Source of the DNA: a virus
Virus record (IMG/VR): IMGVR_UViG_3300037504_001229
Coordinates: 1 to 64,000 of that record
Length of the DNA: 64,000 nucleotides
Strand: one strand, 5' to 3'
The notes under the pieces: model-generated
Seen by the model: the letters and a program-made list of their open reading frames with translations, nothing else
The model's database searches: none
What the model was told of the DNA's origin: nothing
Shown here: piece by piece, positions 498 through 63,945 of the stretch
Layout: the number at the start of each line of letters is the position of its first letter
How positions within the stretch are numbered: position 1 is the stretch's first letter
Position numbers and translations under genes: made by a program

Positions 498-2294
498 TTA
501 TTCCTTTAGCCTTTTTCCTTGTTTTTCATTCCTCATTAACTCTAACATTAGCTTTTCCTGGTCATCCATAATCGATGCATTATAGTAATGTTTACCCGCC
601 ATTGAGTGTTCAAGTAAATTATTACTTCTTTTAGCATTAAAATAGCATTCATATAAAGTACTAGGTTTTAGTCTTTCTTTTAACTTATTTCTTGTTCTTT
701 CATAGTTATCAAACATAAACCCTGATCCTTCTCCATCTTGTGGTTCCTCAGGTTCTTGTTCTCTTGTTTTCATAATATCATCGATCCATTCATCTACATC
801 GTCTCTATCCATAAAAGAAAATTTTCCAAGAATATCTTTAACGATATCAGGAGGTAATGCTTCTCCCCTTTCTAATCCAACTGCATCCCCGATATTATCA
901 AGAATATCTTTTGCAAGTCTTAATGTATCGTTTTTAATACGTAATCTATCACTACTTTCTTCTATTTCAGGAAAAGGCATAGTTAATTCAAAATCAGTAT
1001 CATAATCATATTCTTCACTAATAACAAACTGCATTCTTATAAGTTGAGTAAGTTGTTTTAAAATAGTACTTTGAACTTTATATACAGCTCTAGCAAAAGG
1101 TTTATGTTGACGTAATAAAGCTTGTCCACTTGTCCCGAAACTAGACCTATCTACTATTAAATATCCTTTTGGAATATCTGTTGCCATTATAAGTTCATCT
1201 CTAAGAAGTTCAATATCAGCTATATCATCTAAGTTTAGCCTTGGCTCTTTTATATCTAAGTTTATAAGTCCTTCTGGAGTCCATATTTCAGAATTTATAG
1301 CAAACTGTTCTTTTTCTGTTAAACTTGCTCCTAAATTTGCCCATTCTTCCCTTGCTTCATTAACAGCTTCCCATTGATCTGATTGATCCATATTTTCATC
1401 TACTGCAACTTCAAAATGTTTGATAGGAAAATTTTGAGCTCTTGCCATTGCCATAAGATTTTTTCCTGCTTGAAGCTGTCTAAAAGGAGCTAAAGCATTT
1501 ATCATTAAAGGTCTTCCAAAAGGAAAAAATTCAGATACTGTAGTAAACATTCTAAAATGACTTACATTCCAAGGAGCAAGATACATTTTTTGCCCTAACC
1601 AAAATCCAAATAAATAGTTTCTAAAATATTGAGAATAGTCTTGATCTTTTGCAGAATCATCTAATATTTTTGCTATAGCTCTTAATTTACTATCTTTTTG
1701 AATATAACTAGAAAAATTTTGATATTGTTGTTTTCTTTTATTAACTTGTGAGGCATTAAACTCTATTCGGTCTTTAACATCTTTTACTTCTATAGGAGTA
1801 ATATCTGCTATAGTTTTTTCTTTAGAATCTATAGAGTTTACCCAAAATGAATCACCAAAAAGTACTATATTAAAGGCAGTTTCATGAAGAATATCGGCAG
1901 TTACTCCTATTTTATTAAGAAAATCATATATATAGTTTTGAACTGGTTTCTTTGCTTCTACTCCAATAATCTGATTATTTACATCACTTTGAACTGTTTC
2001 GTCTGCATATAGATTAACTGCTTTTGAAAAAATAGCATTGTTATAATAAGCATAAAGTAAGGAGGAATATCTATCCATCCTATTTTTAAGAGTTTCTGAG
2101 TTTTCAAATGTATCTCTTAAAAAGAAGTTATAAAGCTCTTGTATTTCATCTGGAAATTTGACAGGTTTTAGTTTATTAGTTTTTGGATCTACATATCCTG
2201 GATGAACCGTTGGCTCATTACTTACTTGACTACTTTTTACATCAGATATTTTAAATATTCGTTTGAGATCGTTAATAAATTTATTTGAAGCCAC
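498..2294 (-). CDS. Portal vertex protein
   Basis: A 598-residue protein with the features of T4 gp20-type portals: an N-terminal segment describing positions for linked strands, a 'YADETVQSD'-like segment near residue 95, 'FGDSFWV' near 145, a central helical wing, and 'DIPKGYLIVDRSSFGTSG' near 375, typical of myovirus portals. The portal forms the dodecameric ring through which DNA is packaged and to which the neck attaches. Length is close to that of gp20 (about 520-560). The start is a GTG at 2294 with AGAGGA about 9 bases upstream. That ribosome site lies in a long hairpin whose other arm contains a class 2 promoter, so translation is probably possible only from late transcripts. It is the only confidently structural gene in the window and marks the edge of the head module. 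Confidence 0.85.
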   Translation of the reverse strand: MASNKFINDLKRIFKISDVKSSQVSNEPTVHPGYVDPKTNKLKPVKFPDEIQELYNFFLRDTFENSETLKNRMDRYSSLLYAYYNNAIFSKAVNLYADETVQSDVNNQIIGVEAKKPVQNYIYDFLNKIGVTADILHETAFNIVLFGDSFWVNSIDSKEKTIADITPIEVKDVKDRIEFNASQVNKRKQQYQNFSSYIQKDSKLRAIAKILDDSAKDQDYSQYFRNYLFGFWLGQKMYLAPWNVSHFRMFTTVSEFFPFGRPLMINALAPFRQLQAGKNLMAMARAQNFPIKHFEVAVDENMDQSDQWEAVNEAREEWANLGASLTEKEQFAINSEIWTPEGLINLDIKEPRLNLDDIADIELLRDELIMATDIPKGYLIVDRSSFGTSGQALLRQHKPFARAVYKVQSTILKQLTQLIRMQFVISEEYDYDTDFELTMPFPEIEESSDRLRIKNDTLRLAKDILDNIGDAVGLERGEALPPDIVKDILGKFSFMDRDDVDEWIDDIMKTREQEPEEPQDGEGSGFMFDNYERTRNKLKERLKPSTLYECYFNAKRSNNLLEHSMAGKHYYNASIMDDQEKLMLELMRNEKQGKRLKE

Positions 2295-2301
2295 TATATA
2301 T

Positions 2302-2344
2302 ATTCCTCTAATATAAGTATTAAACTACATTATATTAGTAGGAA
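2302..2344 (-). promoter_or_regulatory. Hairpin sequestering the portal ribosome-binding site
   Basis: Bases 2302-2316 and 2330-2344 are inverted repeats giving about 14 pairs with a one-base bulge and a 13-base loop. In minus-strand RNA the 3' arm contains the AGAGGA ribosome site of the portal gene. The 5' arm contains the class 2 -10 box. A transcript that starts from that box begins in the loop and lacks the 5' arm, so it cannot fold. Read-through RNA from upstream genes would fold and block translation. T4 uses this layout for several late genes. Confidence 0.6.
2329..2340 (-). promoter_or_regulatory. Class 2 (putative late) promoter for the portal gene
   Basis: The minus-strand sequence is exactly TACTAATATAAT. 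The expected start point, 6-8 bases downstream, falls in the loop of the adjacent hairpin. There is no recognisable -35. The same 12-mer occurs exactly at 23728 and 42734. Confidence 0.55.
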
Positions 2345-10074: not shown

Positions 10075-10093
10075 TTCTTACCTCTTCTTATTT

Positions 10094-10123
10094 ATTATAT
10101 ACTTTTTTCTAAGAAATATAAAG
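10094..10123 (-). promoter_or_regulatory. Class 1 promoter (CTTTATA / GTATATAAT)
   Basis: Read on the minus strand: CTTTATA, then 14 bases, then GTATATAAT, ending at 10094. The 30-base span and both boxes match nine other sites in the window. It lies in the gap after the ribonucleotide reductase gene and drives the 10074-to-118 leftward block or its first part. Confidence 0.65.
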
Positions 10124-10128
10124 AAGAA

Positions 10129-12381
10129 TTATCCACATTTTCCCCACCCGCATGAAGGACAAACAATGCATCCCTCTTGAAATATTAACTCTCCTCCACA
10201 ATCTGCACATTTATCAGTAAGGACCCTTTCTCCTTCTTTAATATATTTTTTAAGAACTCGACCTACTGATTTTTCGAATCCTATAAAATTTTTATCTTTA
10301 TTCAACTGATCAACAATAAACTGAAGAGGTACTCCATGTCTAAGCCCCATAGAAATGAACCTCGATAAGGATGCGTATACTTGATTAAACTCATCTGCTA
10401 TATTTTCTATAACTGCTCGATCTTCTCCATTTTCAATAATAAGAGAATATTGACCTTTCTTTATTTTTTTAATGTACCCTTGTTTTTTTCCTATCCTATC
10501 TATTTCATTTTTGGGATCGTTAGTAACAAATATTTCATATAGAGTTCCCTGCATAAGACCTACAAGAACAATATGTCTTTCTTTATTTACACTTATCTCA
10601 TGTATATCACAAGGGAGAACTTCTGGTCTTTTAGGAGCATGAATTCTTTCTATAGCTTGAGGTCTTTCTTCTTTTTGACTTCCAATTGTTTCTAGTACTC
10701 CCTGCATAGAACCTAAGCGAAAGGATGTGAAACCTTTAAGTTCCTTTTCGTAAGCATACATAAAAAGATTTTCATAATCTTTTTTAGAATAAGACTCTGG
10801 TATATTTGCAGTTTTGGAAATACTATTATCAATATATTGTTGAGCTATAGCTTGAATATCTACTTGTTTATAGGGATCTATTTCAAGAGCAGTTTTAAAA
10901 TAATTTGGAAGTAATTCACCGCCCTTATCAAATTCTCTTTTATTTACATGTTCAACATATTTTAAATAAGCATAATCATAAACTCTTTCTTTACTTTTTT
11001 TGTTATCCTTACTTCTTATATTTCTATCATATTCTAAAGCAAATATAGGCTCAATACCACTACTACAATTTTCTCCTAAAGTGAAGGATGTCGTCCCCGT
11101 AGGTGCAATTGTATTCAAAGCTATATTTCTTAAGCCATAAGTTTCAATATTTTCCTTTATCTCAGAGGGTAACCTCTTTATGAAATTAGAATCTAATATT
11201 TTTTTATCAAACTTTGGGAATACTCCTTTTTCATCTGCAAGCATAGATGAGCTAGTATACGAAACATCCCTTAAATTTTTAAATATTTCTTTTGTAAACT
11301 TTTGACTATTTTCGTCTCCATATTCAAATTTCATCATAGCAAAAGTATCGCCTAATCCAGTAATACCTAAACCTATTCTTCTTTCATCTAGAGCTCTTTC
11401 TTTTATTTGTTCTAAAGGATATTGTGTAACATCTAATACGTTATCTAAAAACCTAACTCCTATCCGAATAGTTTCTTCGAAAGCATCCCAATCAAAACTA
11501 GGATAATCAGTAAAGGGATCCTTAACAAATTTTGTCAGATTAATAGCTCCTAAGCAACATACGCCATAAGAAGGAAGCGTAATTTCACCACATGGGTTCA
11601 CGGATTTAATATCATATAAATAATAAGAGTTTGCATTTTTATTAACAGTATCAAGGTTAAGAATCCCCGGTTCATTATACAAATAAGCATTCTTAACTAT
11701 CGAATCATAAAGCTTCTTAGCTTTAATAGTCTTATAAACTTTTCCTTCCCAACTAAGTTCCCAGTCTTTATCTTTCTTAACAGCTTTAATAAATTTATCT
11801 GTTATTCCTACGCTTATATTAAACTGAGTAAGTTTCTTATTTTTATCTCCTTGTTTAAATGTTATAAATTCTTCAATATCCGGGTGATCTATATCCAAAA
11901 TACAAATAGATGCTCCTCTTCTTTGTCCTCCTACTTCTATTGTTTGTGATGCTTGATCAAATATTTCTAAAAAAGATAAAGGACCACTACTTACTCCTCC
12001 TGTAGATAGAGGAGAATTCTTTGGACGAAGTTTTGAAATATTAAACCCTACTCCTCCGCCCTGTTTAAGAATAGTCATATAATTTTTAATAGATTCTGTT
12101 ATTGATTCCATTGAATCTTCTACATCGATAACAAAACAATTGTTATAGTTTTTAAGTTTAGAATAAGGACGAGCATTTGCAAGAATTCTTCCAGCTGGAA
12201 TAAACTTCCTGTTATACATAACCTGAAAAAGTTCTCCTTTGACTTTATCCTTCGTATTCTCTTTTTCTACACTACTAACTTCTTCTGCAATTTCTTTAAA
12301 TAGTTGCAACTCATCATTTTCTCCGTGAAGCATATATTTTTGTTTGAAAATTTCTTGGGAGATTTTTTGTTGCCACTCCAT
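10129..12381 (-). CDS. nrdJ: Adenosylcobalamin-dependent (class II) ribonucleotide reductase
   Basis: A 750-residue reductase. It contains 'LKQGGGVGFNISKLRP' (about 110-125), 'GGQRRGA', 'FNISVGI', the catalytic 'NPCGEI' with the C-x-E pair near residue 263, 'GLGITGLGD' and the finger-loop region 'APTGTTSFTLG'. The C-terminus ends in a zinc-ribbon-like tail CADCGG...CPSCGWGKCG, as in NrdJ, where the cysteines re-reduce the active site. It makes dNTP precursors and needs coenzyme B12 but neither oxygen nor a second subunit, which suits an anaerobic or microaerobic host. No NrdB-like subunit is nearby. It lies alone between the exported protein gene and the class 1 promoter at 10094. Confidence 0.92.
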   Translation of the reverse strand: MEWQQKISQEIFKQKYMLHGENDELQLFKEIAEEVSSVEKENTKDKVKGELFQVMYNRKFIPAGRILANARPYSKLKNYNNCFVIDVEDSMESITESIKNYMTILKQGGGVGFNISKLRPKNSPLSTGGVSSGPLSFLEIFDQASQTIEVGGQRRGASICILDIDHPDIEEFITFKQGDKNKKLTQFNISVGITDKFIKAVKKDKDWELSWEGKVYKTIKAKKLYDSIVKNAYLYNEPGILNLDTVNKNANSYYLYDIKSVNPCGEITLPSYGVCCLGAINLTKFVKDPFTDYPSFDWDAFEETIRIGVRFLDNVLDVTQYPLEQIKERALDERRIGLGITGLGDTFAMMKFEYGDENSQKFTKEIFKNLRDVSYTSSSMLADEKGVFPKFDKKILDSNFIKRLPSEIKENIETYGLRNIALNTIAPTGTTSFTLGENCSSGIEPIFALEYDRNIRSKDNKKSKERVYDYAYLKYVEHVNKREFDKGGELLPNYFKTALEIDPYKQVDIQAIAQQYIDNSISKTANIPESYSKKDYENLFMYAYEKELKGFTSFRLGSMQGVLETIGSQKEERPQAIERIHAPKRPEVLPCDIHEISVNKERHIVLVGLMQGTLYEIFVTNDPKNEIDRIGKKQGYIKKIKKGQYSLIIENGEDRAVIENIADEFNQVYASLSRFISMGLRHGVPLQFIVDQLNKDKNFIGFEKSVGRVLKKYIKEGERVLTDKCADCGGELIFQEGCIVCPSCGWGKCG

Positions 12382-15304: not shown

Positions 15305-15784
15305 TTAACTTTTATCAGACTTATCTTTTTCTAAAGATGCTGCATTTTTAACCATAGCAACTAACATATTTAATGCTTCTGAATCCTCAGGAGTAATTTC
15401 ACTTGGTACTTTATTAGCAATACCTCCTGAACTTACTTCACTAGCTAAAGGTGAAACTGCTCCTTCTTTAGTTGGTTTAAATACATCTAAAAGAGTACTT
15501 ATAGAGTTATTTTCCATATATGTAATATCTTTATAAAGTTGAATAAGTTGAGCAATAGTTATTTCATCATTCTCTATTTTTTCCTCTATTTTATTTTTAA
15601 CAATTTCTTTAACTGAAGTTTCTTTAGAAATAAGGTTTAACCTATCTTTAAAAAAACTATATATAGTATCTTTAAGAGAAAATAGAGGGTCTTCAGTATT
15701 TATTTCCTCTACTTTTCTTTGAACTTCTTTATCTTTCATAAGTTTAACAACTCCTTCAATATTTTCTTTAGTCTTTCTTTCCAT
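15305..15784 (-). CDS. Unknown protein
   Basis: A 159-residue acidic, helical protein without recognisable motifs. The middle region has a low-complexity serine and glycine stretch (SPLASEVSSGGIA) separating two helical parts. It overlaps the upstream gene by 17 bases. Its position ahead of the recA promoter gives no functional clue. Function unknown. Confidence 0.5.
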   Translation of the reverse strand: MERKTKENIEGVVKLMKDKEVQRKVEEINTEDPLFSLKDTIYSFFKDRLNLISKETSVKEIVKNKIEEKIENDEITIAQLIQLYKDITYMENNSISTLLDVFKPTKEGAVSPLASEVSSGGIANKVPSEITPEDSEALNMLVAMVKNAASLEKDKSDKS

Positions 15785-16200: not shown

Positions 16201-17025
16201 CTAATATTCCTTCAAAAACTGATATATTAATACCATTGTTTTATCTACAAGAGGTTTTACTTTACTACCAAACGCTTCATAAAACTCTTCTATACGTCCA
16301 CTTTTTTTAATAAACCTACAAATACCTATCATTGATAAAATATAATAATAAACATCTTGATTATCTTTTATTCGATCAAAAATAGTACTTAGAAGTTTTG
16401 ATATCCCATCATATAAATCTTTTGTTTTTTGTTTTTCCTTAAAATATTCGTTATATTCTTTAAAAATAGGATCATATCCGAAGTAATCAGTCATATGAAT
16501 AACTTCGTGCTCTCCTTCACAAACATGAGCATAGATAGATGTATGACTTTGTTCATTCTTTTCCCTTTTGTTCCATAATACTTGAGGAACTTTACTATTT
16601 AAATAGGCTCCAAAAGACTTTATAATTTCAAAGTTAGGTTTATTTTTATATTGTTCAAACATTATAAGAGCAAGTTCGCTTGCTTTTTCTTCTACATCTT
16701 GATAATGATATGTAAAAGTTGAGGGTAGACTTTTCTTAATTAACGAAGCTGAGTACTCGCGGAATAGCACATACATACTCCAAAGAACTTCGTCTTCTCT
16801 GGTTTTTAAATATTTCTTTTGTAATAGAAAAAGCCTAGTTTCAGTTAAAGGCTTTATATAGTCCTCTTCTCCACAATAAGGACATATTGCAGGTTTATCT
16901 CCATGTTTGTATTCTATATGTTTCCCACAAGATCTACAAGTATTTTTATAGTATTGTCTCCCTTCTTTTCGATATTTTTTCTTTACAACATTCGTTTCAT
17001 GCGGTAATTTATTTGTTTCCATCAT
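16201..17025 (-). CDS. Zinc-ribbon protein with a possible sigma-factor-like region
   Basis: A 274-residue protein. Residues 25-55 form a zinc ribbon with CRSCG and CPYCG knuckles. The middle (about 85-165) has a helical stretch containing 'DVEEKASELALIMFEQY', then 'SFGAYLNSKVPQVLWNKR'. This is reminiscent of sigma region 2, where a conserved acidic helix is followed by an F-x-x-Y/W-containing helix. The rest is helical and has no visible region 4. If it is a sigma-like or late transcription factor, it would be a candidate reader of the class 2 boxes. A class 2 box overlaps its own start codon. Neither assignment can be proved by eye. Confidence 0.4.
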   Translation of the reverse strand: MMETNKLPHETNVVKKKYRKEGRQYYKNTCRSCGKHIEYKHGDKPAICPYCGEEDYIKPLTETRLFLLQKKYLKTREDEVLWSMYVLFREYSASLIKKSLPSTFTYHYQDVEEKASELALIMFEQYKNKPNFEIIKSFGAYLNSKVPQVLWNKREKNEQSHTSIYAHVCEGEHEVIHMTDYFGYDPIFKEYNEYFKEKQKTKDLYDGISKLLSTIFDRIKDNQDVYYYILSMIGICRFIKKSGRIEEFYEAFGSKVKPLVDKTMVLIYQFLKEY

Positions 17026-17035
17026 AATATTAGTA
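17024..17035 (-). promoter_or_regulatory. Class 2-like box overlapping a start codon
   Basis: Minus strand TACTAATATTAT; its last base pairs overlap the first of two ATG codons of the gene ending at 16201. No Shine-Dalgarno precedes the start. Transcription from this box would begin inside the gene, so it may serve a shorter product or be coincidental. Confidence 0.3.
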
Positions 17036-40008: not shown

Positions 40009-40043
40009 AAGGCTCAGTATAAAAAATATACTGAGCCTTTTTT
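40009..40043 (+). terminator. Strong rho-independent terminator
   Basis: A perfect 13-bp stem (AAGGCTCAGTATA at 40009-40021 with 40027-40039), a 5-A loop and then a T-run. It ends the single-gene transcript from the promoter at 39706. The next genes follow immediately, so some read-through or another promoter is needed. Confidence 0.9.
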
Positions 40044-40632: not shown

Positions 40633-41439
40633 ATGCAGAAAAAGGAAATGCAGAAGAAATGTGACTACGATTTAATAGCTATTTATCAAAATGGAGACGA
40701 TCAAGAAAAAAAAGATGCTCTCGAAGTTATGTATATGAGATATCAACCTCTTATACGTAAGATAGCTGGAAAATATTGTCAATACACAGGAGTCTCTAAC
40801 TTCGAGGATTTTCAACAGGAAGCTTTCTTTGAGCTTGTACGAGTTTTTGATCAAGCTGATCTTGACAGAATAACTCCTTCTTGGAAAATCGTTTGGGTTT
40901 ATAAACATAGACTTAAAAATCTTATGGGCCTTATGAAAAGACACGAAGACTTACAAACAAGTCATTTGAACTATTATTGTAAAGGAAATAAAAATCAAAG
41001 AGAAGTAAAAAAAGTAAAAGTTAAAAGTAGTCCATATGTACCTTCTTCGGACGAAGATAATAAATACGAATATCAAATTGATTACATTCAACAATGTTAC
41101 GAAGATGATAGAATTTCTAAAGAAGAAAAAGAATACAACCATAACTTAGTTATGAAGTTCATTAGTAAATTAGATAAACCGTGGTTAAGAGAAGCCCTTG
41201 TATTATTAATGAGCGGTAATGTAAAAAAAGGTGAAGCTTGTGAAGCAGTTGAAGTTGCAAACCCAAGATTTCATCAAGTAGTCCACGGAACAAGACAAGT
41301 GCATTTGTTAGATGAAAATGGCAATAAAATTAAAAACGAAAAAGGAAGGCCTCAATCTAAAGTTATTTATGATTATAAACGAAGCCTTAAATATGAATAT
41401 CATAAATTTCTTGAAAGAGATAAGGATGTTATATACTAA
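40633..41439 (+). CDS. Sigma-70-like transcription factor
   Basis: A 268-residue protein. Residues 36-105 have the region 2 pattern: 'YQPLIRKIAGKYC', then 'FEDFQQEAFFELVRVF', then an aromatic-rich helix 'PSWKIVWVYKHRLKNL'. Residues 170-225 are helical with 'KKGEACEAVEVANPRFHQVV', which could be a region 4-like helix-turn-helix. Between them is a lysine- and serine-rich linker. Such factors redirect the host RNA polymerase; T4 gp55 is a region 2-only example. It could recognise the class 2 boxes (with the clamp as partner) or the unusual class 1 -35. The assignment to one class is not possible here. Confidence 0.65.
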   Translation: MQKKEMQKKCDYDLIAIYQNGDDQEKKDALEVMYMRYQPLIRKIAGKYCQYTGVSNFEDFQQEAFFELVRVFDQADLDRITPSWKIVWVYKHRLKNLMGLMKRHEDLQTSHLNYYCKGNKNQREVKKVKVKSSPYVPSSDEDNKYEYQIDYIQQCYEDDRISKEEKEYNHNLVMKFISKLDKPWLREALVLLMSGNVKKGEACEAVEVANPRFHQVVHGTRQVHLLDENGNKIKNEKGRPQSKVIYDYKRSLKYEYHKFLERDKDVIY

Positions 41440-42729: not shown

Positions 42730-42767
42730 ACCCTACTAATATAATAATAAAAAAGTATTGGTAGGGT
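42730..42767 (+). promoter_or_regulatory. Hairpin sequestering the ribosome site of the NeuB-like gene
   Basis: ACCCTACTAATA (42730-42741) pairs with TATTGGTAGGGT (42756-42767), 12 pairs with one G-U. The 3' arm contains the TAGGG ribosome site 7 bases before the ATG at 42774. The 5' arm overlaps the class 2 promoter box. RNA started at the class 2 promoter would lack most of the 5' arm and be translated, while upstream read-through RNA would be silent. This is the same logic as at the portal gene (2302-2344). Confidence 0.6.
42734..42745 (+). promoter_or_regulatory. Class 2 (putative late) promoter of the glycan cassette
   Basis: Exact TACTAATATAAT with the expected start near 42752, within the loop of the adjacent hairpin. 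It is the only promoter-like site seen between the lysis genes and 53774, so it may drive the whole 11 kb cassette late in infection. Confidence 0.55.
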
Positions 42768-42773
42768 ATTTTT

Positions 42774-43619
42774 ATGATTAATGTCATTGGAGAAGTGGGA
42801 ATCAATTATGCTTTTGGAAATAATAAAGATAAATTCATTTCAAATGCTCAAAAACTTATTTCCTTAGCAAGTGTTGCAGGATGTAACTATGTTAAGTTTC
42901 AAAAAAGAAATCCAGATATAGCTGTACCAGATGCTCAAAAAACAAAACCTAAAAAAGTCCCTTGGAGAAAAGAAGAAACCACATACTTACAATATAAAGA
43001 GGATATCGAATTTAGTTTTGAACAATATCAATATATTGTACATTTTTGTCAAGAAAATGAAATAGATAGTTTTGTTTCTGTATGGGATATTGATTCTGCC
43101 CAAGAAATGAGTAAACTTTATACCTTAACTAAAATACCCTCTGCTAAACTAACAGACTGGGAACTGTTAGAAACTGTAAGGGATCTTTATGATGTTAAGA
43201 TACTATCAACTGGAATGTCATTTGAAGAGGAAATAGATAAGGCTGTAGATATTCTTCAACCTCAAATAATAATGCATACAAATTCAGTTTATCCTACTCC
43301 AATAGAAGACTTATATTTAAAGTACATTAAGTGGTTAAAAGAAAAATATCCTAAAAAAGAAATAGGGTATAGTTCACATTACTATGGAATAAAAGATGTA
43401 TTTCCTGCAGTAGCATTAGATATTCAATGGATAGAAAAACATATTACTCTTAACCATGAGAACTGGGGTAGTGATCAAAAAGCTTCGGTAGAACCTCATG
43501 GATTATTCGAACTTGTAAAAGGAATAAGAGATATTGAACTAGGGCTTGCTAAAGGATATGAAAAAAGAACTTTATATCCTGGAGAAGAAATAAAAAGAGA
43601 AAGTTTAAGAGGAAAATAG
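42774..43619 (+). CDS. NeuB-like sialic/nonulosonic acid synthase (barrel only)
   Basis: A 281-residue protein matching the barrel domain of NeuB-type synthases: 'GEVGINYAFGNN', 'VAGCNYVKFQKRNPD', 'FVSVWDIDSA', 'IPSAKLTDWELL', 'ILSTGMS', and near 195-215 'EIGYSSHYYG'. Late 'IEKHITLNHENWGSDQKAS' fits the metal- and phosphoenolpyruvate-binding end. These enzymes condense phosphoenolpyruvate with an N-acyl mannosamine-type sugar to give a 9-carbon sugar acid. The usual C-terminal antifreeze-like SAF domain (about 60 residues) is missing. It begins the glycan cassette and, with the NeuA-HAD fusion at 51449, provides synthesis and activation of the sugar. Confidence 0.8.
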   Translation: MINVIGEVGINYAFGNNKDKFISNAQKLISLASVAGCNYVKFQKRNPDIAVPDAQKTKPKKVPWRKEETTYLQYKEDIEFSFEQYQYIVHFCQENEIDSFVSVWDIDSAQEMSKLYTLTKIPSAKLTDWELLETVRDLYDVKILSTGMSFEEEIDKAVDILQPQIIMHTNSVYPTPIEDLYLKYIKWLKEKYPKKEIGYSSHYYGIKDVFPAVALDIQWIEKHITLNHENWGSDQKASVEPHGLFELVKGIRDIELGLAKGYEKRTLYPGEEIKRESLRGK

Positions 43620-43620
43620 G

Positions 43621-43872
43621 ATGTGGAAAGAATATCGTAAGAAACCAGTAGTTATTAAAGCAATACAATGGACAGGAGAAAACTTAGAGGAAGTGAAAGA
43701 ACTATGTGAATTTCATAGTCATCTATCTTATGAGTCTAGTGATACTTTAGTCATAAAAACTCTAGAAGGTGATATGAAATGTCAAAAAAGGGACTATATA
43801 ATAATAGGAGTGAACGGAGAATATTATCCTTGTAAACCAGATATATTTGAAAAAACATATGAGGAAGTATAA
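43621..43872 (+). CDS. Conserved small phage protein
   Basis: An 83-residue protein of a common phage family: 'YRKKPVVIKAIQWTGEN' at the start and 'DYIIIGVNGEYYPCKPDIF' near the end, the latter an almost invariant signature. The fold is probably a small beta barrel; the function is unknown. The start follows the NeuB-like stop by one base. Its insertion here suggests modular exchange within the cassette. Confidence 0.6.
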   Translation: MWKEYRKKPVVIKAIQWTGENLEEVKELCEFHSHLSYESSDTLVIKTLEGDMKCQKRDYIIIGVNGEYYPCKPDIFEKTYEEV

Positions 43873-44649
43873 GTGAAGATTATTTTATGCTCAATGATCG
43901 ATGATTTTTTTATGGTTGGATTTGAAGTTTTTATGAAGTCACTTCTTAAAACTAATCCTTGGTTTGATCTACCTTTTCGTTTAATAGATGTAGGACTTAA
44001 TAAAAAGAATAAAGAAAAATGTTTAGAAATATATTCTAACATTGAGTTTGTTAAACCTAAAAAGGAAAACTATAAAAAAATAAGTTTTGAAAAAACTCAT
44101 GAAATACTTTGGAATACTTATTATAAGTTAGATATTTTTTCATATGATGATGTAGATAGACTTGTATTTCTTGATTTAGATATGATAGTATTAGAGGATA
44201 TTAAAAAACTGTTTGAGTTTACTGTTACTATAGGAGGGTGTAAAGGATATTCTCAAGGTAATGATAGTTTAAGAAAAGATATGAATACTGGATGTATTGT
44301 TCTTAATAAACCAGTTTTGAATAATAGTATCTATAAAAACATACTAGATTATACAGCTAAAGCAGGTGGATTTAGTATGCCAGATCAAAAAGCAATAGGT
44401 CAGTTTTTTAAAAATAAAATAGCATTTATTCCAAAGGAGTTTGATTGTGAAAAAAGACTTTGGAAGGGAGATAAGTTTAAACTTTTTTTTAATGATAAAA
44501 ATGAACTAATGTATAAAGAAGGGAAGAAGATTTCTAAGTGTAAGATTCTTCACTATGTGAGCGAGAAGCCATGGCAAGAGAAAAAGGATAAAATAAACTT
44601 TGGGTATGAAGAACTTGAAAAACTCTGGTGGAATGTAAAGAATGAGTAG
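43873..44649 (+). CDS. Glycosyltransferase family 8-like
   Basis: A 258-residue protein starting with GTG, directly after the previous stop. It has the GT-A features of GT8: metal-binding D101-L-D103 in 'FLDLDMIV', 'DMNTGCIVLNK' near 135-145, 'MPDQKAIGQFF' near 168, and 'ILHYVSEKPW' near 227 with the second metal-binding histidine. It transfers a hexose from a nucleotide sugar, keeping the anomeric configuration. It overlaps the GGQ-domain gene by 8 bases. Confidence 0.8.
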   Translation: MKIILCSMIDDFFMVGFEVFMKSLLKTNPWFDLPFRLIDVGLNKKNKEKCLEIYSNIEFVKPKKENYKKISFEKTHEILWNTYYKLDIFSYDDVDRLVFLDLDMIVLEDIKKLFEFTVTIGGCKGYSQGNDSLRKDMNTGCIVLNKPVLNNSIYKNILDYTAKAGGFSMPDQKAIGQFFKNKIAFIPKEFDCEKRLWKGDKFKLFFNDKNELMYKEGKKISKCKILHYVSEKPWQEKKDKINFGYEELEKLWWNVKNE

Positions 44650-44986
44650 AGAATTATTATTTTCTGTTACAAAAAAAGATTTAGAAATTACTTGGTTTTC
44701 AGGAAAAGGAGCAGGTGGTCAACATAGAAATAAACATCAAAACTGTTGCAGAATTAAACATCCGGAAAGTGGAGTTATTGTAACTGGACAGGAAGAAAAA
44801 AGTAGAGATAAAAACTTAAGAAATGCTTTTAAAAGACTAACTGAAAATAAAAAATTTAAAACTTGGTTAAAAATAAAAACTTCTGAGCTAATGAATGATT
44901 CATATAGTATTGAGGAACAAGTTAATAACGCTATGAGAGAAGAAAATTTAAAGGTGGAATATGGAAAAGATATCGATTCGCAATAG
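44642..44986 (+). CDS. GGQ-domain release factor-like protein
   Basis: A 114-residue protein with 'SGKGAGGQHRNK', the peptidyl-tRNA hydrolysing loop with GGQ at 25-27. It has the short length of ArfB/PrfH-type rescue factors and a C-terminal basic helix, but no codon-recognition domain. It would release peptide chains from stalled ribosomes. It may complement RNA repair by rescuing ribosomes on mRNAs or rRNA cut by host defence nucleases. It sits between a glycosyltransferase and a methyltransferase, which is an odd location. Overlaps both neighbours. Confidence 0.85.
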   Translation: MSRELLFSVTKKDLEITWFSGKGAGGQHRNKHQNCCRIKHPESGVIVTGQEEKSRDKNLRNAFKRLTENKKFKTWLKIKTSELMNDSYSIEEQVNNAMREENLKVEYGKDIDSQ

Positions 44987-45506
44987 TAAAAATGCAAAAA
45001 TCGGCCTCAAACAGATGATTGAATATGTAAAAAAGAACTCAGATTTTCCTATAGAAAAAGTAGTCGAAATAGGATCTTATGTAGGAGATTCTTCAGAAAT
45101 ATTTGCTCAACATTTTAATCAAGTTATTTGTATCGATCCATTCATTAATGGATATGATAAAAATGATGCTGCTTCTTATCAATATCGTATGAGAATAATA
45201 GAAAATCAGTTTGACGAATTGTGTAGTAGATATAGTAATATAAGAAAACTTAAAATGAAATCGAATGAGGCAGTTAATCTTTTTGAAGATAAGTCTATAG
45301 CTATAGCTTATATAGATGCAATTCATACACGTGAGGGGGTCAAAAATGATATTAAACTTTGGCTACCAAAAATTAAAAAAGGTGGGTTTATAACTGGACA
45401 CGACTATCAAGGAAAATTTCCTGGAGTTATTAAAGCAGTAAACGAATTACTAGGCGAACCTGATAAAATATTTCCTGATACAAGTTGGGTAAAAAAGGTT
45501 AAGTAA
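44961..45506 (+). CDS. Class I SAM-dependent methyltransferase
   Basis: A 181-residue protein with 'KVVEIGSYVGDSSEIFA' (SAM-binding loop near 35-48), 'VICIDPF' (acidic end of strand 2) and 'IAYIDAIHT' (motif 4-like). The type is Methyltransf_24, which often acts on sugars or lipids in glycan clusters. It overlaps the GGQ gene end by 26 bases. It may O- or N-methylate the glycan built by the cassette. Confidence 0.75.
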   Translation: MEKISIRNSKNAKIGLKQMIEYVKKNSDFPIEKVVEIGSYVGDSSEIFAQHFNQVICIDPFINGYDKNDAASYQYRMRIIENQFDELCSRYSNIRKLKMKSNEAVNLFEDKSIAIAYIDAIHTREGVKNDIKLWLPKIKKGGFITGHDYQGKFPGVIKAVNELLGEPDKIFPDTSWVKKVK

Positions 45507-46276
45507 TGGATATTGAAGAAAAATATAAGAATCTTATCGAAGGTAAAAAAGTTATATTTGTTGGACCAGCCCCTACTCTAAAAGATCAAAATAAAGGTAG
45601 ATGGATAGATGAAGAATTTGATTTAGTTGTAAGAACTAATGGAGCTTCTCTTTTACTTAAAAATAAAGAGTTTAAAAAAGATTATGGCTCTAAAATGGAT
45701 ATTCTATATTGTAATGTTCAGTTCCATAGAGAGATGAGACCTTTACCCTTAGAAAGATGGAAAATAGATCATGGATTACAATTTGTTAACTTTAAAGTAT
45801 TGAAAGAATCCTATGAGAAAATTTATTCTAAGGCTGTACCTGTAAGGGGAATAAGTACTCTTATAAAGAAACTACAACATACTGTTCCTAGTGTTTTAAT
45901 GGGCCCTATTATATTAAAAGATATTTTACAATTTAATCCTGAAAGACTATATTTTACGGGAATGGATTTTTATATAGATAAACCCGATATGTTTATTCCA
46001 GGAGATTATAGAGAATATTATCCAGGATATCTTCCTAAAAAAATAGTTAAAAAAGCAGATGTCGATAACATAGGAAAAATAGATAATCATGAACAATATG
46101 AAAACTGTAGAATAGTTTATAACCTTTACAAAAATGGAGAAGTAGAAACTGATAAACAAATAGTAAAAATAATGGAAACTATTATATCTGATCCTCTCTA
46201 TTATTCAGTAAAAGGGAGAAGAAAAAGAATTAAAGATGCTAACTTGAAAAAACAACTTAAGAGGACAGTGATTTGA
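45506..46276 (+). CDS. Sialyltransferase-like (GT29-type) protein
   Basis: A 256-residue protein with 'VIFVGPAPTLKDQNKGRWID' and 'FDLVVRTNGA' near 15-50, which resembles sialylmotif L of GT29 (VGNGxxL...G..ID..D.VxRxN). 'ISTLIKKLQH' and 'LYFTGMDFY' follow near 118 and 150. It would transfer the CMP-activated sugar acid made by the NeuB-like and NeuA-like enzymes. The lysine-rich C-terminus extends beyond the domain. It starts one base within the previous stop. The assignment is by motif resemblance only. Confidence 0.6.
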   Translation: MDIEEKYKNLIEGKKVIFVGPAPTLKDQNKGRWIDEEFDLVVRTNGASLLLKNKEFKKDYGSKMDILYCNVQFHREMRPLPLERWKIDHGLQFVNFKVLKESYEKIYSKAVPVRGISTLIKKLQHTVPSVLMGPIILKDILQFNPERLYFTGMDFYIDKPDMFIPGDYREYYPGYLPKKIVKKADVDNIGKIDNHEQYENCRIVYNLYKNGEVETDKQIVKIMETIISDPLYYSVKGRRKRIKDANLKKQLKRTVI

Positions 46277-46971
46277 AAGTAAAAAATAAAAATAAGCCAA
46301 AGGAAGAACTTAAAAGTATTTTACAAATTCCTAAAGATCCAACTCCTGTTATTTTAATAGGGTGCGGAGAAAGTATTGATAATTTAAATTTAGGAGCTTT
46401 GAATAGACAAGAAAAATACAATACTTGTACTATTTCTGATGCTATTAAAGTTTTAAAACAACCAACATATGCTTTTCAATATCATTGGAGAGGTGCTTGG
46501 CGGTGTCATCAAGAATTAGATAAAGCAAAATATCTTATAACTACATATAAGGTTTTAAATGATTTTAAAAGAGTAGGGAAAGAGGAATGGTATAATATAA
46601 TTAAGGAGCAAGAAAATGCTTATTTTTTTCAATCTAACCATGTAAAATGGGATGTAATAAGAGAAGGTAAATTTGATTTACAAATATCAGAACCGAAGCT
46701 TCAAAATCACGAAGGATCAGTAGTAGGAGTTATACATTTTCTATGTGGGTATTTAGGAGTTAGAAATATTAAATACATAGGATTTGACGGAGGAGTTAAT
46801 CCAGGAAAAACTAGTTATGGATCTAAAGTACATCATGGAAGAAAGCCTTCTAAAATACAAGGAGCAGCTAAAGATTATGAAAAAAGTTGGCAAGCTGTTC
46901 TTAAAATGCTCGAATATTATCCTCATGTTATGTTTAAGCCTTTAGACGAATTTTTAAGAAAGGGAAAATAA
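46273..46971 (+). CDS. Maf/DUF115-like glycosyltransferase-like protein
   Basis: A 232-residue protein with 'PVILIGCGESIDNL' near 24-37 (Rossmann-like phosphate loop) and 'GSVVGVIHFLCGYLGV' with 'IKYIGFDGG' near 155-180. This is the order of MptE/DUF115 proteins, the core of the motility accessory factor (Maf) transferases that attach nonulosonic acids to flagellin in several bacteria. The start is a TTG at 46273 overlapping the previous stop. It fits a transferase or sugar-acid handling role in the cassette. Confidence 0.55.
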   Translation: MKVKNKNKPKEELKSILQIPKDPTPVILIGCGESIDNLNLGALNRQEKYNTCTISDAIKVLKQPTYAFQYHWRGAWRCHQELDKAKYLITTYKVLNDFKRVGKEEWYNIIKEQENAYFFQSNHVKWDVIREGKFDLQISEPKLQNHEGSVVGVIHFLCGYLGVRNIKYIGFDGGVNPGKTSYGSKVHHGRKPSKIQGAAKDYEKSWQAVLKMLEYYPHVMFKPLDEFLRKGK

Positions 46972-46975
46972 ATTT

Positions 46976-48013
46976 ATGAAAGCTCTTCACTTAGCTATCT
47001 TCGATAGAAATATTGGAGACAATGCTCTTAACTATGTAATAGACAACATGTTCAAAGATAAGTTTGATACTTATAAGACATATAATATATATAAGAAAAC
47101 TTTAATAGATAAAAATACTATTGATTACTTAAATAGTTTTGATGTCTTAATTATAGGAGGAGGTGGTTTATTATCTTCTCATGTACCGGGGAAGAAAATA
47201 ACAAAGTGGGGTACTGCAATAAGAATACCTTTAGATAAAGTTAAAAGTAAAAAAGTCTTTTATTCCTTGGGTTATAATAACTTTTATCCTGACATAGCCC
47301 CTGCTGGGAAGTTAGTAAATCAGCTAGATTATATTATTAATGATAAGAACTCTTATATAAGTCTAAGAAATGACGGGTCAAAAGAAAGGCTACAAGATTA
47401 TATAGATAGTAACAAAATAAGAACAATACCTGATGCCGGGACTTTTTTCAATATTAAAAAAGAATTTCCTGAGTATATACTTATAAATATTGCTATGGAT
47501 TCAATACCTGTTCGATATGGGAGTATAGAAAAACCTTTAAAAATTCTAGAGAAGGTTTTGAAACCATACGAAAAAGAAAAAATTATGTTTGCTTTCCATA
47601 CTCCCGACGATGTTAGAATAACAAAAGTAGATTATTTTAAAATATTACAAAATAAATTTAATATAAGTATTTATCCTTTTGATAATAATTATAAGAATAC
47701 AATTACTTCTTGGGCAGTATATTCTAAAGCTAAATTTGTTATAGGCACAAGAGGACATTCACAGATTTTATGTGCTGGGAATTCTATCCCTTGTTTTTCT
47801 ATCGATTCTCATCCTAAAATTAGAGATTATGCAAGATTAAATAACTTGGGATCCTTTTGCTCTAATATAGACGATAAAGATATTTTTAAGAAATTTGCCT
47901 ATTTTACTGAGAATATAGAAGAGTATTTAAAGAAGTGTTTGAAGTTAAAAACTATCTGGGATGAACAAATATGTAATTATAATAAGGAACTATTGAATGA
48001 ACTTTATAATTAA
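46976..48013 (+). CDS. Polysaccharide pyruvyltransferase-like protein
   Basis: A 345-residue protein with 'DRNIGDNALNY' (GDNAL at 14-18), 'VLIIGGGGLLSS' near 58-69 and 'FVIGTRGHSQILCAGNSIP' near 250-270. These are the hallmarks of the polysaccharide pyruvyltransferase (CsaB-like) family. Such enzymes add ketal-linked pyruvate to sugars, making surface polymers acidic. Within the family some act as sugar transferases. Its end overlaps the beta-propeller gene by 17 bases. Confidence 0.8.
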   Translation: MKALHLAIFDRNIGDNALNYVIDNMFKDKFDTYKTYNIYKKTLIDKNTIDYLNSFDVLIIGGGGLLSSHVPGKKITKWGTAIRIPLDKVKSKKVFYSLGYNNFYPDIAPAGKLVNQLDYIINDKNSYISLRNDGSKERLQDYIDSNKIRTIPDAGTFFNIKKEFPEYILINIAMDSIPVRYGSIEKPLKILEKVLKPYEKEKIMFAFHTPDDVRITKVDYFKILQNKFNISIYPFDNNYKNTITSWAVYSKAKFVIGTRGHSQILCAGNSIPCFSIDSHPKIRDYARLNNLGSFCSNIDDKDIFKKFAYFTENIEEYLKKCLKLKTIWDEQICNYNKELLNELYN

Positions 48014-48938
48014 AAATGAGTATGTAATGAATAAATATGATGTCTATTTTTCTTTACTTAAAAATGATAAAGAAATATTTGTATTTCATAGAAGTGATGT
48101 TGTAGGCAAAAAAGCAAAAACAAATAAACTGACTATAAAAGATAATAAAATAGTTAGTAAGGAAATTGTATTAAAAGAACCTTGTTTATCTCATAACTTT
48201 AGCATTCCTCCAGATTTCAACTTTGCCATAGCAGGTTTAGAATTTCCCAAATTTAAAAAATCTAAATACAATAATAGATTATATACTATAGACTTTAAAA
48301 CTTTTGATATTAAAGAAGAACTTCCTATACATGTAGATATGGAGAACTTTGTTAAACCTAAACTTGAAAATAAAAATGAAAAAATTATTATGAGTAACTT
48401 CGATAGTATGATTTCTTTACTTAAATATCAAGATACTTATTATCTTTATACAAGAGCTAATGTCAAACAGGGCGTTAGAAATCTTCAATACTTTACTTCT
48501 AGTGATTTTAAAACTTGGGAAGCGAAGGGATTAGTTAAATTTAATCATCACATTACTTCAAATGATAGTTATTATAGCCCTTACTTTTTTAAACATCCTA
48601 CTAGAGATTTATATATAGGGTGGTTAACATTTTTAGAAAAGAAAAGTAGATATAGTAGTATTAGAGTATATATATCTAGAGATTGTGAAACTTGGGAATA
48701 TAAAAATGAGATTTTTAATGATAGAAGAGCTAACTTTTTAGTTAAAAGTAAAGATGTAGGTAAGATACCAGCAAACTTAAAGTCTTATTACTTTCCTGTT
48801 TACGGTTATTGGGTAGAAGATAACAAATTTAACTTTATGATTCATCATAATTATTTTGGTTTAATAAAATCAGAAGATGTTAAAATAGTTCATTATCAAA
48901 TTAAATTAGAGGAACTCGATGAAATGCTTAATTTGTAA
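47997..48938 (+). CDS. Beta-propeller glycosidase-like protein (GH32/43-like)
   Basis: A 313-residue protein, rich in strands, with repeated W/Y-containing blades: 'SMISLLKYQDTYYLYTRAN', 'YFTSSDFKTWEAKG', 'DLYIGWLTFL' and 'YISRDCETWEYKNEI'. The repeated 'S.D..TWE' pattern and the acidic residues are typical of five-bladed GH43/GH32-like folds. It could trim or rearrange a glycan, or be a binding protein. No signal peptide is seen, so it acts in the cytoplasm. ATG at 47997 with AAGGA upstream is preferred to ATG 48027. Confidence 0.55.
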   Translation: MNFIIKNEYVMNKYDVYFSLLKNDKEIFVFHRSDVVGKKAKTNKLTIKDNKIVSKEIVLKEPCLSHNFSIPPDFNFAIAGLEFPKFKKSKYNNRLYTIDFKTFDIKEELPIHVDMENFVKPKLENKNEKIIMSNFDSMISLLKYQDTYYLYTRANVKQGVRNLQYFTSSDFKTWEAKGLVKFNHHITSNDSYYSPYFFKHPTRDLYIGWLTFLEKKSRYSSIRVYISRDCETWEYKNEIFNDRRANFLVKSKDVGKIPANLKSYYFPVYGYWVEDNKFNFMIHHNYFGLIKSEDVKIVHYQIKLEELDEMLNL

Positions 48939-49611
48939 TAGCAAAAACATACAGAAAAGTAAAAATATAGTTAGATGTTTATCTTGCGGACATCAATACA
49001 AAGAAATTCAGGAAGCTAAAAATATAGAATTTCAAAGTAAGTATCATCTTAGGTCTAGATGCCGAACTTTAACTTTAGTAAATAACCAAGTACCTAAAAC
49101 TTTTCATAATGAAAGATATGGAATATGTAAAAGTAGAGTAAATAAAATAAAAGGAATATTAAAAGAGGAATATACTTTACTTGATGTAGGAGGCAGTTGT
49201 GGAACTTTTGGAGTTCATATAAAACCTTATGTCAAAGAGATAGAAATAACAGATTTAGCTAACTATCAAAAAAAGGAAAGTGAAAGACTTGGGTTTAAGT
49301 TTTATCAAGGAAATTTTTTAACTCTTAATATTGATAAAAAATATGATATTGTTACAGCCTGGCATGTACTAGAACATATAAATGATGTAAATAAATTTAT
49401 TGAAAAATGCAAAAGTTTAAGTAAAAAATACATTGTTATAGAAGTTCCTACCGAGCGAAAAATTCAACAAAATATAGAAAGTGACGGACATATTCATTAT
49501 TTTACTTCTTCCTCTTTTAAAGTTTTACTTGATAAATTTTTTAAAACATATACTTTGCAAAAAGGAGTTCAAAAACCAGCTTTACTAGCTATTATAAAGA
49601 AGGGTATTTAA
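48919..49611 (+). CDS. Zinc-ribbon SAM-dependent methyltransferase
   Basis: A 230-residue protein. It starts with a zinc ribbon, MKCLIC and CLSCGHQY (residues 3-24), followed by a class I methyltransferase: 'TLLDVGGSCGTFG' near 90 (SAM loop), 'TAWHVLEHI' near 142 and 'HIHYFTSSSF' near 190. This is the C-methyltransferase-like architecture often found in O-antigen and nonulosonic-acid loci. It overlaps the previous gene by 20 bases. Confidence 0.75.
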   Translation: MKCLICNSKNIQKSKNIVRCLSCGHQYKEIQEAKNIEFQSKYHLRSRCRTLTLVNNQVPKTFHNERYGICKSRVNKIKGILKEEYTLLDVGGSCGTFGVHIKPYVKEIEITDLANYQKKESERLGFKFYQGNFLTLNIDKKYDIVTAWHVLEHINDVNKFIEKCKSLSKKYIVIEVPTERKIQQNIESDGHIHYFTSSSFKVLLDKFFKTYTLQKGVQKPALLAIIKKGI

Positions 49612-49612
49612 A

Positions 49613-50233
49613 ATGGCTATAATGAGAGAATATAAAGTATTTTTTATCCATATTCCGAGAACAGGAGGACATACTATAGATGCTCTTTTTGGACATAGAA
49701 GAAACAAACAAAAAGATAGAGTAAAAAGACATGCATATCCAAAAGATTATAAAAATATATTTCCAAAGGAGTGGAAAGAATATTTTAAATTTACTTTTGT
49801 AAGAAATCCTTGGGATAGAGTAGTATCAGCTTGGACAAGATCTAGAGGTTCTAGGAATTATTTAGTCGAGGATAAAAAAAATATACATGATGATAAGTGG
49901 TTTTCTCAAAATATTCGAAATTCTTTTAATGCATTTATAGAAAATGAACTTAATAATGTTTTAGTTTCTGGGCACTTTATTCCCCAAAGTAAATGGCTTT
50001 TAAAAAGTAATAAAAAACCTTATAAATATAACTTTATAGGTAGATTCGAATACTTTGAAAGAGATCTTGGTATTCTCTTAGATAATTTAGATATAGACTA
50101 TTCTCAAATACCTGTTATGAATGTTTCGAATAAAAGACCGTATATAGAATACTACAATAATAAAACACTAAAAATAGTGAAAGAACTTTATAAAGAAGAG
50201 ATAGAATATTTAGGATATGAGTATGGAGAATAA
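49613..50233 (+). CDS. Sulfotransferase
   Basis: A 206-residue protein with the PAPS-binding loop HIPRTGG (13-19), 'FTFVRNPWDRVVSAW' near 62-76 (3'-phosphate binding Arg and Ser) and 'FIGRFEYFERD' near 144. This matches carbohydrate sulfotransferases of the Sulfotransfer_2 type. It would sulfate a sugar in the cassette's product using PAPS from the host. It is one of two in the window; phage sulfotransferases are uncommon. Confidence 0.85.
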   Translation: MAIMREYKVFFIHIPRTGGHTIDALFGHRRNKQKDRVKRHAYPKDYKNIFPKEWKEYFKFTFVRNPWDRVVSAWTRSRGSRNYLVEDKKNIHDDKWFSQNIRNSFNAFIENELNNVLVSGHFIPQSKWLLKSNKKPYKYNFIGRFEYFERDLGILLDNLDIDYSQIPVMNVSNKRPYIEYYNNKTLKIVKELYKEEIEYLGYEYGE

Positions 50234-50819
50234 TTTTAATTATAAAAAGTTATATGAAAATTTATACAAAATAGGGTATCAGAAAAATGTAAATATTGGA
50301 GTATCTTATGTTGAAAGTATTTGTAATAATTATGAGTTTAATACTTTGTTAGAAATAGGATGTTCCCAAGGATACGCCTTACTAGAATTTGAAAAATACG
50401 GAAAAAAAGTTAAAGGAATCGATATTTCTAAAACTGCTGTTTCTTATTGTAAAAGTAAAGGATTGAAATGTAAAGTAAATTCTGCCACTGATATTAAATA
50501 TAGAGATAATAGTTTTGATGCTATTTTTTCTTCGGATGTTTTAGAGCATTTAATAGAGGAGGATACTTTCAAAGCTTTAAAGGAAATAGACAGGGTAACA
50601 AGAAAGTGGGTATTTCTAAAAGTTTCAAAATATAAAGAGGGTAATAGGGAGTGGATAAACAAGCTTCATAATAACAGTGAGTATTTAGAAATAGAAAATT
50701 TACACCAAACTCTATGGGATTATAAAACCTGGATAAAAAATATTAGAGAAACAACTTCCTTAAAGTTTGTCGAGAGAAAGAATAGAATATTAGTTTTTGA
50801 AAAAAGGAGTGACTCTTGA
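50217..50819 (+). CDS. Class I SAM-dependent methyltransferase
   Basis: A 200-residue protein with 'TLLEIGCSQGYALLEF' near 40 (SAM loop), 'GIDISKTAV' near 70, and 'DAIFSSDVLEHL' near 100. This is the Methyltransf_11 or _25 pattern. It lies between two sulfotransferases, so O-methylation of a sugar or of its acid is plausible. The ATG at 50217 lies inside the end of the previous gene; a second ATG six bases later is also possible. Confidence 0.75.
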   Translation: MSMENNFNYKKLYENLYKIGYQKNVNIGVSYVESICNNYEFNTLLEIGCSQGYALLEFEKYGKKVKGIDISKTAVSYCKSKGLKCKVNSATDIKYRDNSFDAIFSSDVLEHLIEEDTFKALKEIDRVTRKWVFLKVSKYKEGNREWINKLHNNSEYLEIENLHQTLWDYKTWIKNIRETTSLKFVERKNRILVFEKRSDS

Positions 50820-51424
50820 TAAAGTATTTTTTTCTCCATGTACCTAAGTGCGCAGGTGTTAGTATTATGCATTCTTTATGGGAACTACTAGGTAGTAAAA
50901 AAGAAATTAGAGAAATACATCATCACCCTCAAAAAACTATTGCAAGATTTGAGGAAGTTCTAGATAAATCTTTTATATTTATTTTTTCTAGGAATCCTTG
51001 GGATCGATTTATTTCTTCTTTTTTTTATAGTGTTAAAAGATATAATCCTAATAAGCCGCATTCTATCAGAAAAGTTTGTTTTAATTTTAAAGAGGATGTC
51101 AATCTTTTTATTAATAAAATGAAAGATAGTAAAAAGTTCGAAAAGAAAGTTATAAAATCTTTCCATTTTAGACCCCAAGTAAATTGGTTATATAAAAAGA
51201 TCGATTTCTATGGAAAATACGAAACTTTAGAAAGAGATTTTAAAAAAGTATCAAGAATTATAAAACCGGGATCAAAAAATATTGAACTTAAATCTTTAAA
51301 TATTTCTGAAAATAGAAATAGAGAATTGCCTTATCAAAGTTATTTTTCAGAAGAAAATATTAAATATATTGGAGAATTATATAAAGAAGATATTGATTAT
51401 TTTAACTATACTTTTAACAACTAA
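50816..51424 (+). CDS. Sulfotransferase (second copy)
   Basis: A 202-residue protein with HVPKCAG at 8-14 (PAPS loop) and 'FIFSRNPWDRFISSFFYS' near 56-73, followed by 'YGKYETLERDF' near 136. It is a homologue of the enzyme at 49613, with the same order of motifs, but the sequences are clearly diverged. It starts with TTG at 50816, overlapping the methyltransferase stop, with AAGGAG upstream. Different sulfation positions on the same glycan would explain the pair. Confidence 0.85.
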   Translation: MIKYFFLHVPKCAGVSIMHSLWELLGSKKEIREIHHHPQKTIARFEEVLDKSFIFIFSRNPWDRFISSFFYSVKRYNPNKPHSIRKVCFNFKEDVNLFINKMKDSKKFEKKVIKSFHFRPQVNWLYKKIDFYGKYETLERDFKKVSRIIKPGSKNIELKSLNISENRNRELPYQSYFSEENIKYIGELYKEDIDYFNYTFNN

Positions 51425-51448
51425 TATATAAAAGGAGAAGTAAACTTA

Positions 51449-53771: not shown

Positions 53772-53773
53772 TT

Positions 53774-53803
53774 CTTTATATTTTGATGTAACTAGTATAT
53801 AAT
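53774..53803 (+). promoter_or_regulatory. Class 1 promoter after the glycan cassette
   Basis: CTTTATA, 14 bases, GTATATAAT starting directly after the cassette's last stop codon. The -10 ends 7 bases before the next start codon, which has no ribosome site; the RNA may be leaderless. Confidence 0.65.
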
Positions 53804-53809
53804 AAAAAT

Positions 53810-53992
53810 ATGAAAACTATAGTAGAGATAGAAAAGGTTGCTCGGGATAGGTATAGTGTTTATGTAAACGAGAATGGAAAAATGTCTTATTATCCTTGTC
53901 AACACTATTCACTTAATAATAACGGGAATCTTATACTTGATAAGGAGAAAGTTATAAGATTCGACGAAATAAATATTAAGAATGTTAAGTAA
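53810..53992 (+). CDS. Small protein, probably from a leaderless mRNA
   Basis: A 60-residue protein starting MKTIVEIEKVARDRYSVY. It is strand-rich, with no motif; residues 25-45 are asparagine- and lysine-rich. Its ATG sits where transcription from the class 1 promoter at 53774 should begin, and there is no Shine-Dalgarno. It ends shortly before the duplicated promoter block at 54011. Function unknown. Confidence 0.5.
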   Translation: MKTIVEIEKVARDRYSVYVNENGKMSYYPCQHYSLNNNGNLILDKEKVIRFDEINIKNVK

Positions 53993-54010
53993 ATTTTTCC
54001 AGAAAAAATA

Positions 54011-54040
54011 CTTTAAATTTTGGACAAAAAAGTATATATT
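54011..54040 (+). promoter_or_regulatory. Class 1 promoter of the structured RNA / RNA ligase 1 unit
   Basis: CTTTAAA, 14 bases (ending GGACAAAAAA), GTATATATT. About 45 bases around it are nearly identical to the promoter region at 62206-62250, including an upstream A-tract that may act as an UP element. Confidence 0.65.
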
Positions 54041-54046
54041 AATACT

Positions 54047-54190
54047 ATAAAAAGGTTATGAGTTAACCTACAAAACTCTTTGGCGGAAGGGATATGATAT
54101 ATTGTCACTCCTCCAGTTCACGATAATCTATAAATCGTGTATTATTCAAACAAGTTCTCCTGGCCGGGGGAGAGTTCCCGGCTATTATTT
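54047..54190 (+). ncRNA. Structured non-coding RNA or 5' leader
   Basis: Downstream of the class 1 promoter no reading frame of useful size exists for about 160 bases. Instead four hairpins follow each other: AGGTTA/TAACCT (54053-54069), TGGCGGA/TCCTCCA with one mismatch and an inner GATA/TGTC stem (54081-54115), CACGAT/ATCGTG (54119-54139), and a GC-rich TGGCCGGG/CCCGGCTA stem (54161-54184). The last one is followed by TTATTTTAA, a weak terminator tail. It may be an independent small RNA or a regulatory leader of the RNA ligase gene starting at 54206. It does not fold as a tRNA. Confidence 0.5.
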
Positions 54191-54205
54191 TAATAGAGGT
54201 AGAAG

Positions 54206-55342: not shown

Positions 55343-55345
55343 AGA

Positions 55346-63933: not shown

Positions 63934-63945
63934 TACTAATATTAT
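63934..63945 (+). promoter_or_regulatory. Class 2-type promoter box after the terminator
   Basis: TACTAATATTAT, 4 bases after the terminator's T-run and 3 bases before an ATG that opens a frame to the window end. No -35 or ribosome site is visible. Confidence 0.4.

Follow-up and report, generated by a model that had tools for sequence, protein, structure and literature searches.

Hairpin and promoter box in the portal leader

The window analyzed here, the first 64,000 bases of the 90,579-base virus record IMGVR_UViG_3300037504_001229, has a G+C content of 29% and encodes on its minus strand a T4-type portal protein (498..2294; PF07230 Portal_T4, Pfam 9.4e-10), whose leader is the subject of this study. 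Genes were called with a custom script. The sole close relative found is one species represented by four near-identical records of 106-140 kb, with 61% identity in the portal and 65% in the terminase; because the four records agree exactly in their portal, 14274, and 24913 leaders, we counted it once. Alignment of the portal protein with that of the relative, which has an ATG start, begins at residue 1, and GTG 2294 is therefore the correct portal start.

Ahead of this codon, TTCCT(A)CTAATATAA (2344-2330, minus strand) pairs with TTATATTAGAGGAA (2316-2303), forming a hairpin of 14 Watson-Crick pairs with one bulged A (2339). The 5' arm (2330..2344, TTCCTACTAATATAA) contains an exact 12-mer, TACTAATATAAT, of what we term the class-2 promoter box (2329..2340), the same box that stands before late genes of the relative, and the 3' arm (2303..2316) contains the portal Shine-Dalgarno (SD) sequence AGAGGAA (2303..2309). 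An earlier note on this DNA had described such a hairpin at the same coordinates, with the box in one arm and the SD in the other, and our analysis bears it out. The minimum free energy is -15.2 kcal/mol for a 51-nt piece and -19.8 kcal/mol with flanks, whose inclusion lengthens the stem over GTG 2294. Since the gene upstream stops at 2367, 22 nt short of the 5' arm, its ribosomes need not melt the portal stem. An Rfam scan of the window returned 0 matches to curated structured-RNA families.

The class-2 box recurs in both phages, where 25 aligned sites yield the consensus TACTAATA-TWAT, with a weak RTR after it and without a -35 element. All seven copies of TACTAATAT in the record lie just upstream of correctly stranded genes. 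In the relative, class-2 boxes precede the genes for terminase, portal, major head protein (capsid), tail sheath, tail tube, baseplate wedge, and tail fibre, so the label 'late promoter' is well grounded. At about 10 class-2 sites across the two phages, a start codon that opens a long frame is found 10-16 nt beyond the first box base, in most cases at precisely 12 or 15; frame frequency at random positions predicts about one such site. Most of these start codons have no SD. They include the terminase of both phages (in the window, box 63934..63945, plus strand, with ATG at 63949), the gene 16201-17025 (box 17024..17035, minus strand, with index 10 and index 13 both occupied by start codons) and its orthologue, and sites 54009, 57005, 64185, and 78519 of the relative. 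The simplest reading is that class-2 mRNAs at several sites are leaderless, with the start codon at the predicted 5' end. On that reading, transcription would start at index 12-14 of the box, which at the portal corresponds to 2328-2326, the first bases of the loop (2326..2328); the loop start proposed in the earlier note thus agrees with start-codon placement at other class-2 boxes.

Within the relative, leaderless-type start codons 10-15 nt after the box were recorded at L018 8247, L020 14009 and 17005, L021 4185 and 18519, and L024 7088. Before its major head protein gene (L019 2484-2632), a long leader contains a strong 5'-end hairpin (GTGGAGGATT...AATTCTTCAC) immediately behind a class-2 box; this hairpin is possibly an mRNA-stabilising or regulatory structure.

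Predicted occlusion of the Shine-Dalgarno, and the upstream promoter

A second hairpin of this kind, also flagged in the earlier note, is indeed present on the plus strand at 42730-42767, upstream of a NeuB-family gene (42774..43619; PF03102, Pfam 1.6e-52). Here, 42730-42742 (ACCCTACTAATAT) pairs with 42755-42767 in 13 pairs, including two G-U; the class-2 box TACTAATATAAT occupies 42734..42745, and the 3' arm carries an SD-like GTAGGG with ATTTTT after it. The simplest reading puts the predicted transcription start inside the loop at this site too.

The cost of opening the SD was computed for 131 predicted genes of the record, with the RNA beginning 80 nt upstream of each start codon. NeuB (13.7 kcal/mol) and the portal (12.1 kcal/mol) rank first and second, followed by a third gene at 7.0 and a median of 1.9; with class-2 boxes at seven of the 131 ranked genes, the probability that both top positions fall to this class is 0.0025, a value that, like the shuffles below, is to be read knowing that the portal and NeuB sites had been singled out beforehand. 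Class-2 genes of the relative take occlusion ranks 1 (24913), 5 (37771), and 10 (14274) of 167, and pooling them with this record gives p = 0.004. When the upstream sequence and the box were dinucleotide-shuffled together, the observed value was reached in 3 of 601 shuffles for the portal and 1 of 601 for NeuB; shuffling the leader gave 1/601 and 6/601, respectively. Such shuffles support occlusion at the portal, NeuB, 24913, and 37771; site 14274 of the relative (G001), considered as a further supported case, did not rise above them and was rejected.

Moving the RNA 5' end along the portal leader changes this cost sharply: with a start at least 10 nt ahead of the box, opening the SD requires 9-11 kcal/mol, whereas a start at least 4 nt into the box brings this down to 2-3 kcal/mol. 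At NeuB, the corresponding fall is from about 12 to 2.3 kcal/mol. Given so steep a drop, the precise position at which transcription begins makes no difference to the conclusion of occlusion. Computational folding of the two transcript forms agrees with what had been proposed from the sequence, the SD being held in a stable helix of the longer, read-through RNA and left open in the class-2 RNA.

Upstream of the portal lies a strong copy of a second promoter type (class 1, early-type), at 10087..10135 on the minus strand (matrix score 36.3, TCTTTATA...AAAAAAGTATATAATA). The class-1 pattern consists of ACTTTAAA or TCTTTATA, then AAGTATATAATA, and precedes genes other than those of class 2. From 10103 this promoter reads toward the portal across RNA-ligase, SbcC-like, and PNK genes, all on one strand, and the interval up to the portal contains no convincing terminator, just two weak 5-pair terminator-like matches. 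The portal gene thus lies downstream of what is presumably an early or middle transcription unit. About 15 strong, strongly conserved class-1 copies occur in the record, for example at 22549, 29388, 53794, and 62241 (all plus strand). A search of the relative with the class-1 core returned one seed only, which suggests that the two phages use different early promoters. Within the early-type cluster, a B12-dependent ribonucleotide reductase is encoded at 10129-12381 (minus strand; TIGR02504 above cut-off).

Weighing a proposed promoter-coupled translational switch

We consider it probable (roughly 0.72) that the portal leader contains a promoter-coupled translational switch like those of T4 e, soc, and I-TevI, operating with another promoter box in a phage that is not T-even. 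RNA from the upstream early/middle operon would read into the portal gene and fold the hairpin, hiding the SD (and also the GTG when the stem is extended), and so would yield little protein. At a later stage, transcription would begin from the class-2 promoter, the box of which forms the 5' arm of the hairpin; RNA from it would begin at about 2328, at the base of the loop, and, being without the 5' arm, would leave the SD open for translation. The position of the box within the 5' arm, together with the predicted loop start, would place the late promoter such that its RNA is without the 5' strand, as in the T4 arrangement.

Several observations weigh against this reading. The NeuB hairpin carries a TATTTTT tail, so it is possibly a terminator. 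In the sole close relative, portal and NeuB keep the class-2 box without the hairpin, and the portal SD is open, with an opening cost of 0.1. No covariation accompanies the portal stem, the comparison comprising a single species whose portal leader has no hairpin. Class-2 occlusion in the relative alone reaches p ~0.06, and under the weakest null, in which the upstream flank alone was shuffled and the box kept as it is, the observed values are reached in 21/601 (portal) and 18/601 (NeuB) shuffles (p ~0.03). We also infer the early or late timing of both promoter classes from the genes that they precede. On the supporting side, in the three occluded class-2 genes of the relative (24913, 37771, and 14274), the 5' arm lies just upstream of the box, with the box in the loop. 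The relative keeps the box and loses the hairpin at portal and NeuB, and the device is therefore not conserved gene by gene; as it occludes other class-2 genes, the device has seemingly been gained and lost gene by gene. The structure at gene e is likewise reported to have been gained and lost among T4-type phages (PMC3014915).

Among the rival explanations, both hairpins could act as intrinsic terminators for transcription arriving from upstream, each with a new promoter lying within it. The ATTTTT after the stem at 42730 favors this, as does the use of hairpin terminators elsewhere in the record (e.g., 40009-40039 and 63889). The portal hairpin, however, is followed by ATATATATAG, without a T run, and so cannot be an ordinary terminator. 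At 42730, the usual pattern of a G+C-rich stem with a T run directly after it is partly present (TATTTTT), but the T run is not flush with the stem, and the 12-nt loop exceeds those of the record's evident terminators. With the SD placed in the 3' arm at both sites, termination seems a rather unlikely account of the pair, even if the NeuB hairpin might be a terminator instead of a switch. Nor does a DNA operator explain the common features well. T4 I-TevI does bind an operator overlapping its own late promoter (PMC2988022), and the box belongs to the inverted repeat at both sites, so a protein bound to a palindrome over the class-2 box could control transcription; outside the box, however, the arms and their spacing differ between the sites, the arms in the relative lie outside the box, and what the sites have in common is pairing with the SD, which makes an operator very improbable.

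Chance pairing of an AT-rich box with an AT-rich leader gains some credit from the hairpin-free portal leader of the relative and from the 3% of shuffles that equal the observed value with the box fixed. Against it stand the leader shuffles (1/601 and 6/601), the possession of the top two ranks of 131 by class-2 genes, and the recurrence of the pattern in the relative at other genes with class-2 boxes. These shuffles and ranks speak against pure chance, which we regard as improbable overall, if less clearly so for a single site. The argument in the earlier note that recurrence makes coincidence unlikely therefore holds for the ranks and the broader shuffles, and is softened by the roughly 3% obtained when the upstream flank alone is shuffled.

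Phage setting, candidate sigma factor, and relation to the T4 switch

Beyond the portal, the window encodes a terminase large subunit, whose gene extends past the window end, together with a PolA-type DNA polymerase, a B12-dependent ribonucleotide reductase, RecA, and an Rnl2-like RNA ligase; a phage with this gene content is, strictly speaking, no T-even. Among viral contigs, scans with the portal and the terminase recovered only the four near-identical copies of the one related species plus two distant terminases (32-33%), around which the fetched stretches hold no TACTAATATWAT box. Species genomes contributed no further relatives, and viral contigs contributed no box-plus-hairpin DNA patterns.

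A phage sigma factor (Sigma70_r2; 40633..41439, plus strand), whose match to PF04542 falls just below cut-off in one scan and above it in another and which also matches phrog_351 (4.7e-7), is a plausible candidate reader of the class-2 box. Its gene directly precedes lysis-type genes and NeuB, and its weakly similar counterpart in the relative has a GACTAATATAAT box upstream. Two other candidates were rejected: the gene 16201-17025 as a late sigma factor, a role suggested by the appearance of its sequence, for which the structural model is of low confidence (predicted local distance difference test, pLDDT, 56.6), Foldseek gave nothing at E <= 0.001, and Pfam showed no sigma match; and 15305-15784 as a late-promoter regulator (phrog_25387), where the match is not significant (E 0.033) and is absent in the orthologue. 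No match to gp55 was found among the proteins scanned.

NeuB heads a long plus-strand gene run (42774-58241) that includes NeuB and polysaccharide pyruvyl transferase families and may serve surface-sugar synthesis, and NeuB has a class-2 promoter before it in both phages. Beyond the window, tRNA-like arms (GGTTCGAATCC) at positions ~69943, 73781, and 74053 are among the strongest folds of the record, and short G+C-rich repeats (AAACGCTGGCGGGC) lie at 90053-90146, near the end of this otherwise AT-rich genome.

The T4 precedent cited in the earlier note is documented: leader switches are described for e, soc, 49, and I-TevI, with the gene e structure cutting synthesis about 100-fold (PMC3014915). 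In these genes, the SD or start codon lies in a helix formed solely by the longer early/middle RNA, and the late RNA is without the 5' strand (PMC3014915, PMC2988022); the late promoters sit in the DNA for that strand (PMC3014915), and the genes are all late genes borne on long early/middle transcripts (PMC2988022). The portal leader resembles them in having the late promoter in the 5'-strand DNA of a late gene downstream of early genes. It differs in its box, TACTAATATWAT against the T4 late octamer TATAAATA (six of the first eight letters agree), in having no established gp55/gp33 homologue, in the PolA-type polymerase of the phage, and in the genes putatively regulated, namely portal and NeuB. 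Copies of the T4 octamer are mostly intragenic in this record; those at 62250 and 74152, which lie between genes, form part of class-1 promoters. Although the arrangement would work like the T4 switch, we do not class it as a T4 late-promoter member, given its different octamer and the absence of an established gp55/gp33/gp45 system. Similar SD hairpins, shown for Aeh1 mobE and implicated for T4 segB (PMC2988022, PMC3014915), belong to homing endonuclease genes, whereas the one described here belongs to a structural gene. The leaderless class-2 starts of the same two phages have no hairpin and no SD, with the start codon at the predicted RNA 5' end, yet their translation should likewise depend on class-2 initiation.

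These two kinds of start may reflect one rule for the lineage, under which promoter choice gates translation: a late gene reached by early read-through would either have its SD hidden by a hairpin, absent from class-2 RNA alone, or be leaderless from the class-2 transcription start. We offer this as a tentative proposal, with the odds somewhat against it; if it is true, the lineage would have arrived convergently at the T4 switch, applied across the genome and with another sigma and box system. The papers cited here document the T4 leader switch in T4-type phages, for a few late genes and homing endonucleases. Should it hold here, where the polymerase is unrelated and the box is different, and at an essential capsid gene, early-operon read-through would be a general problem that has been solved repeatedly at translation, and unannotated phages would be predicted to have start sites open solely on RNA begun at a late promoter.
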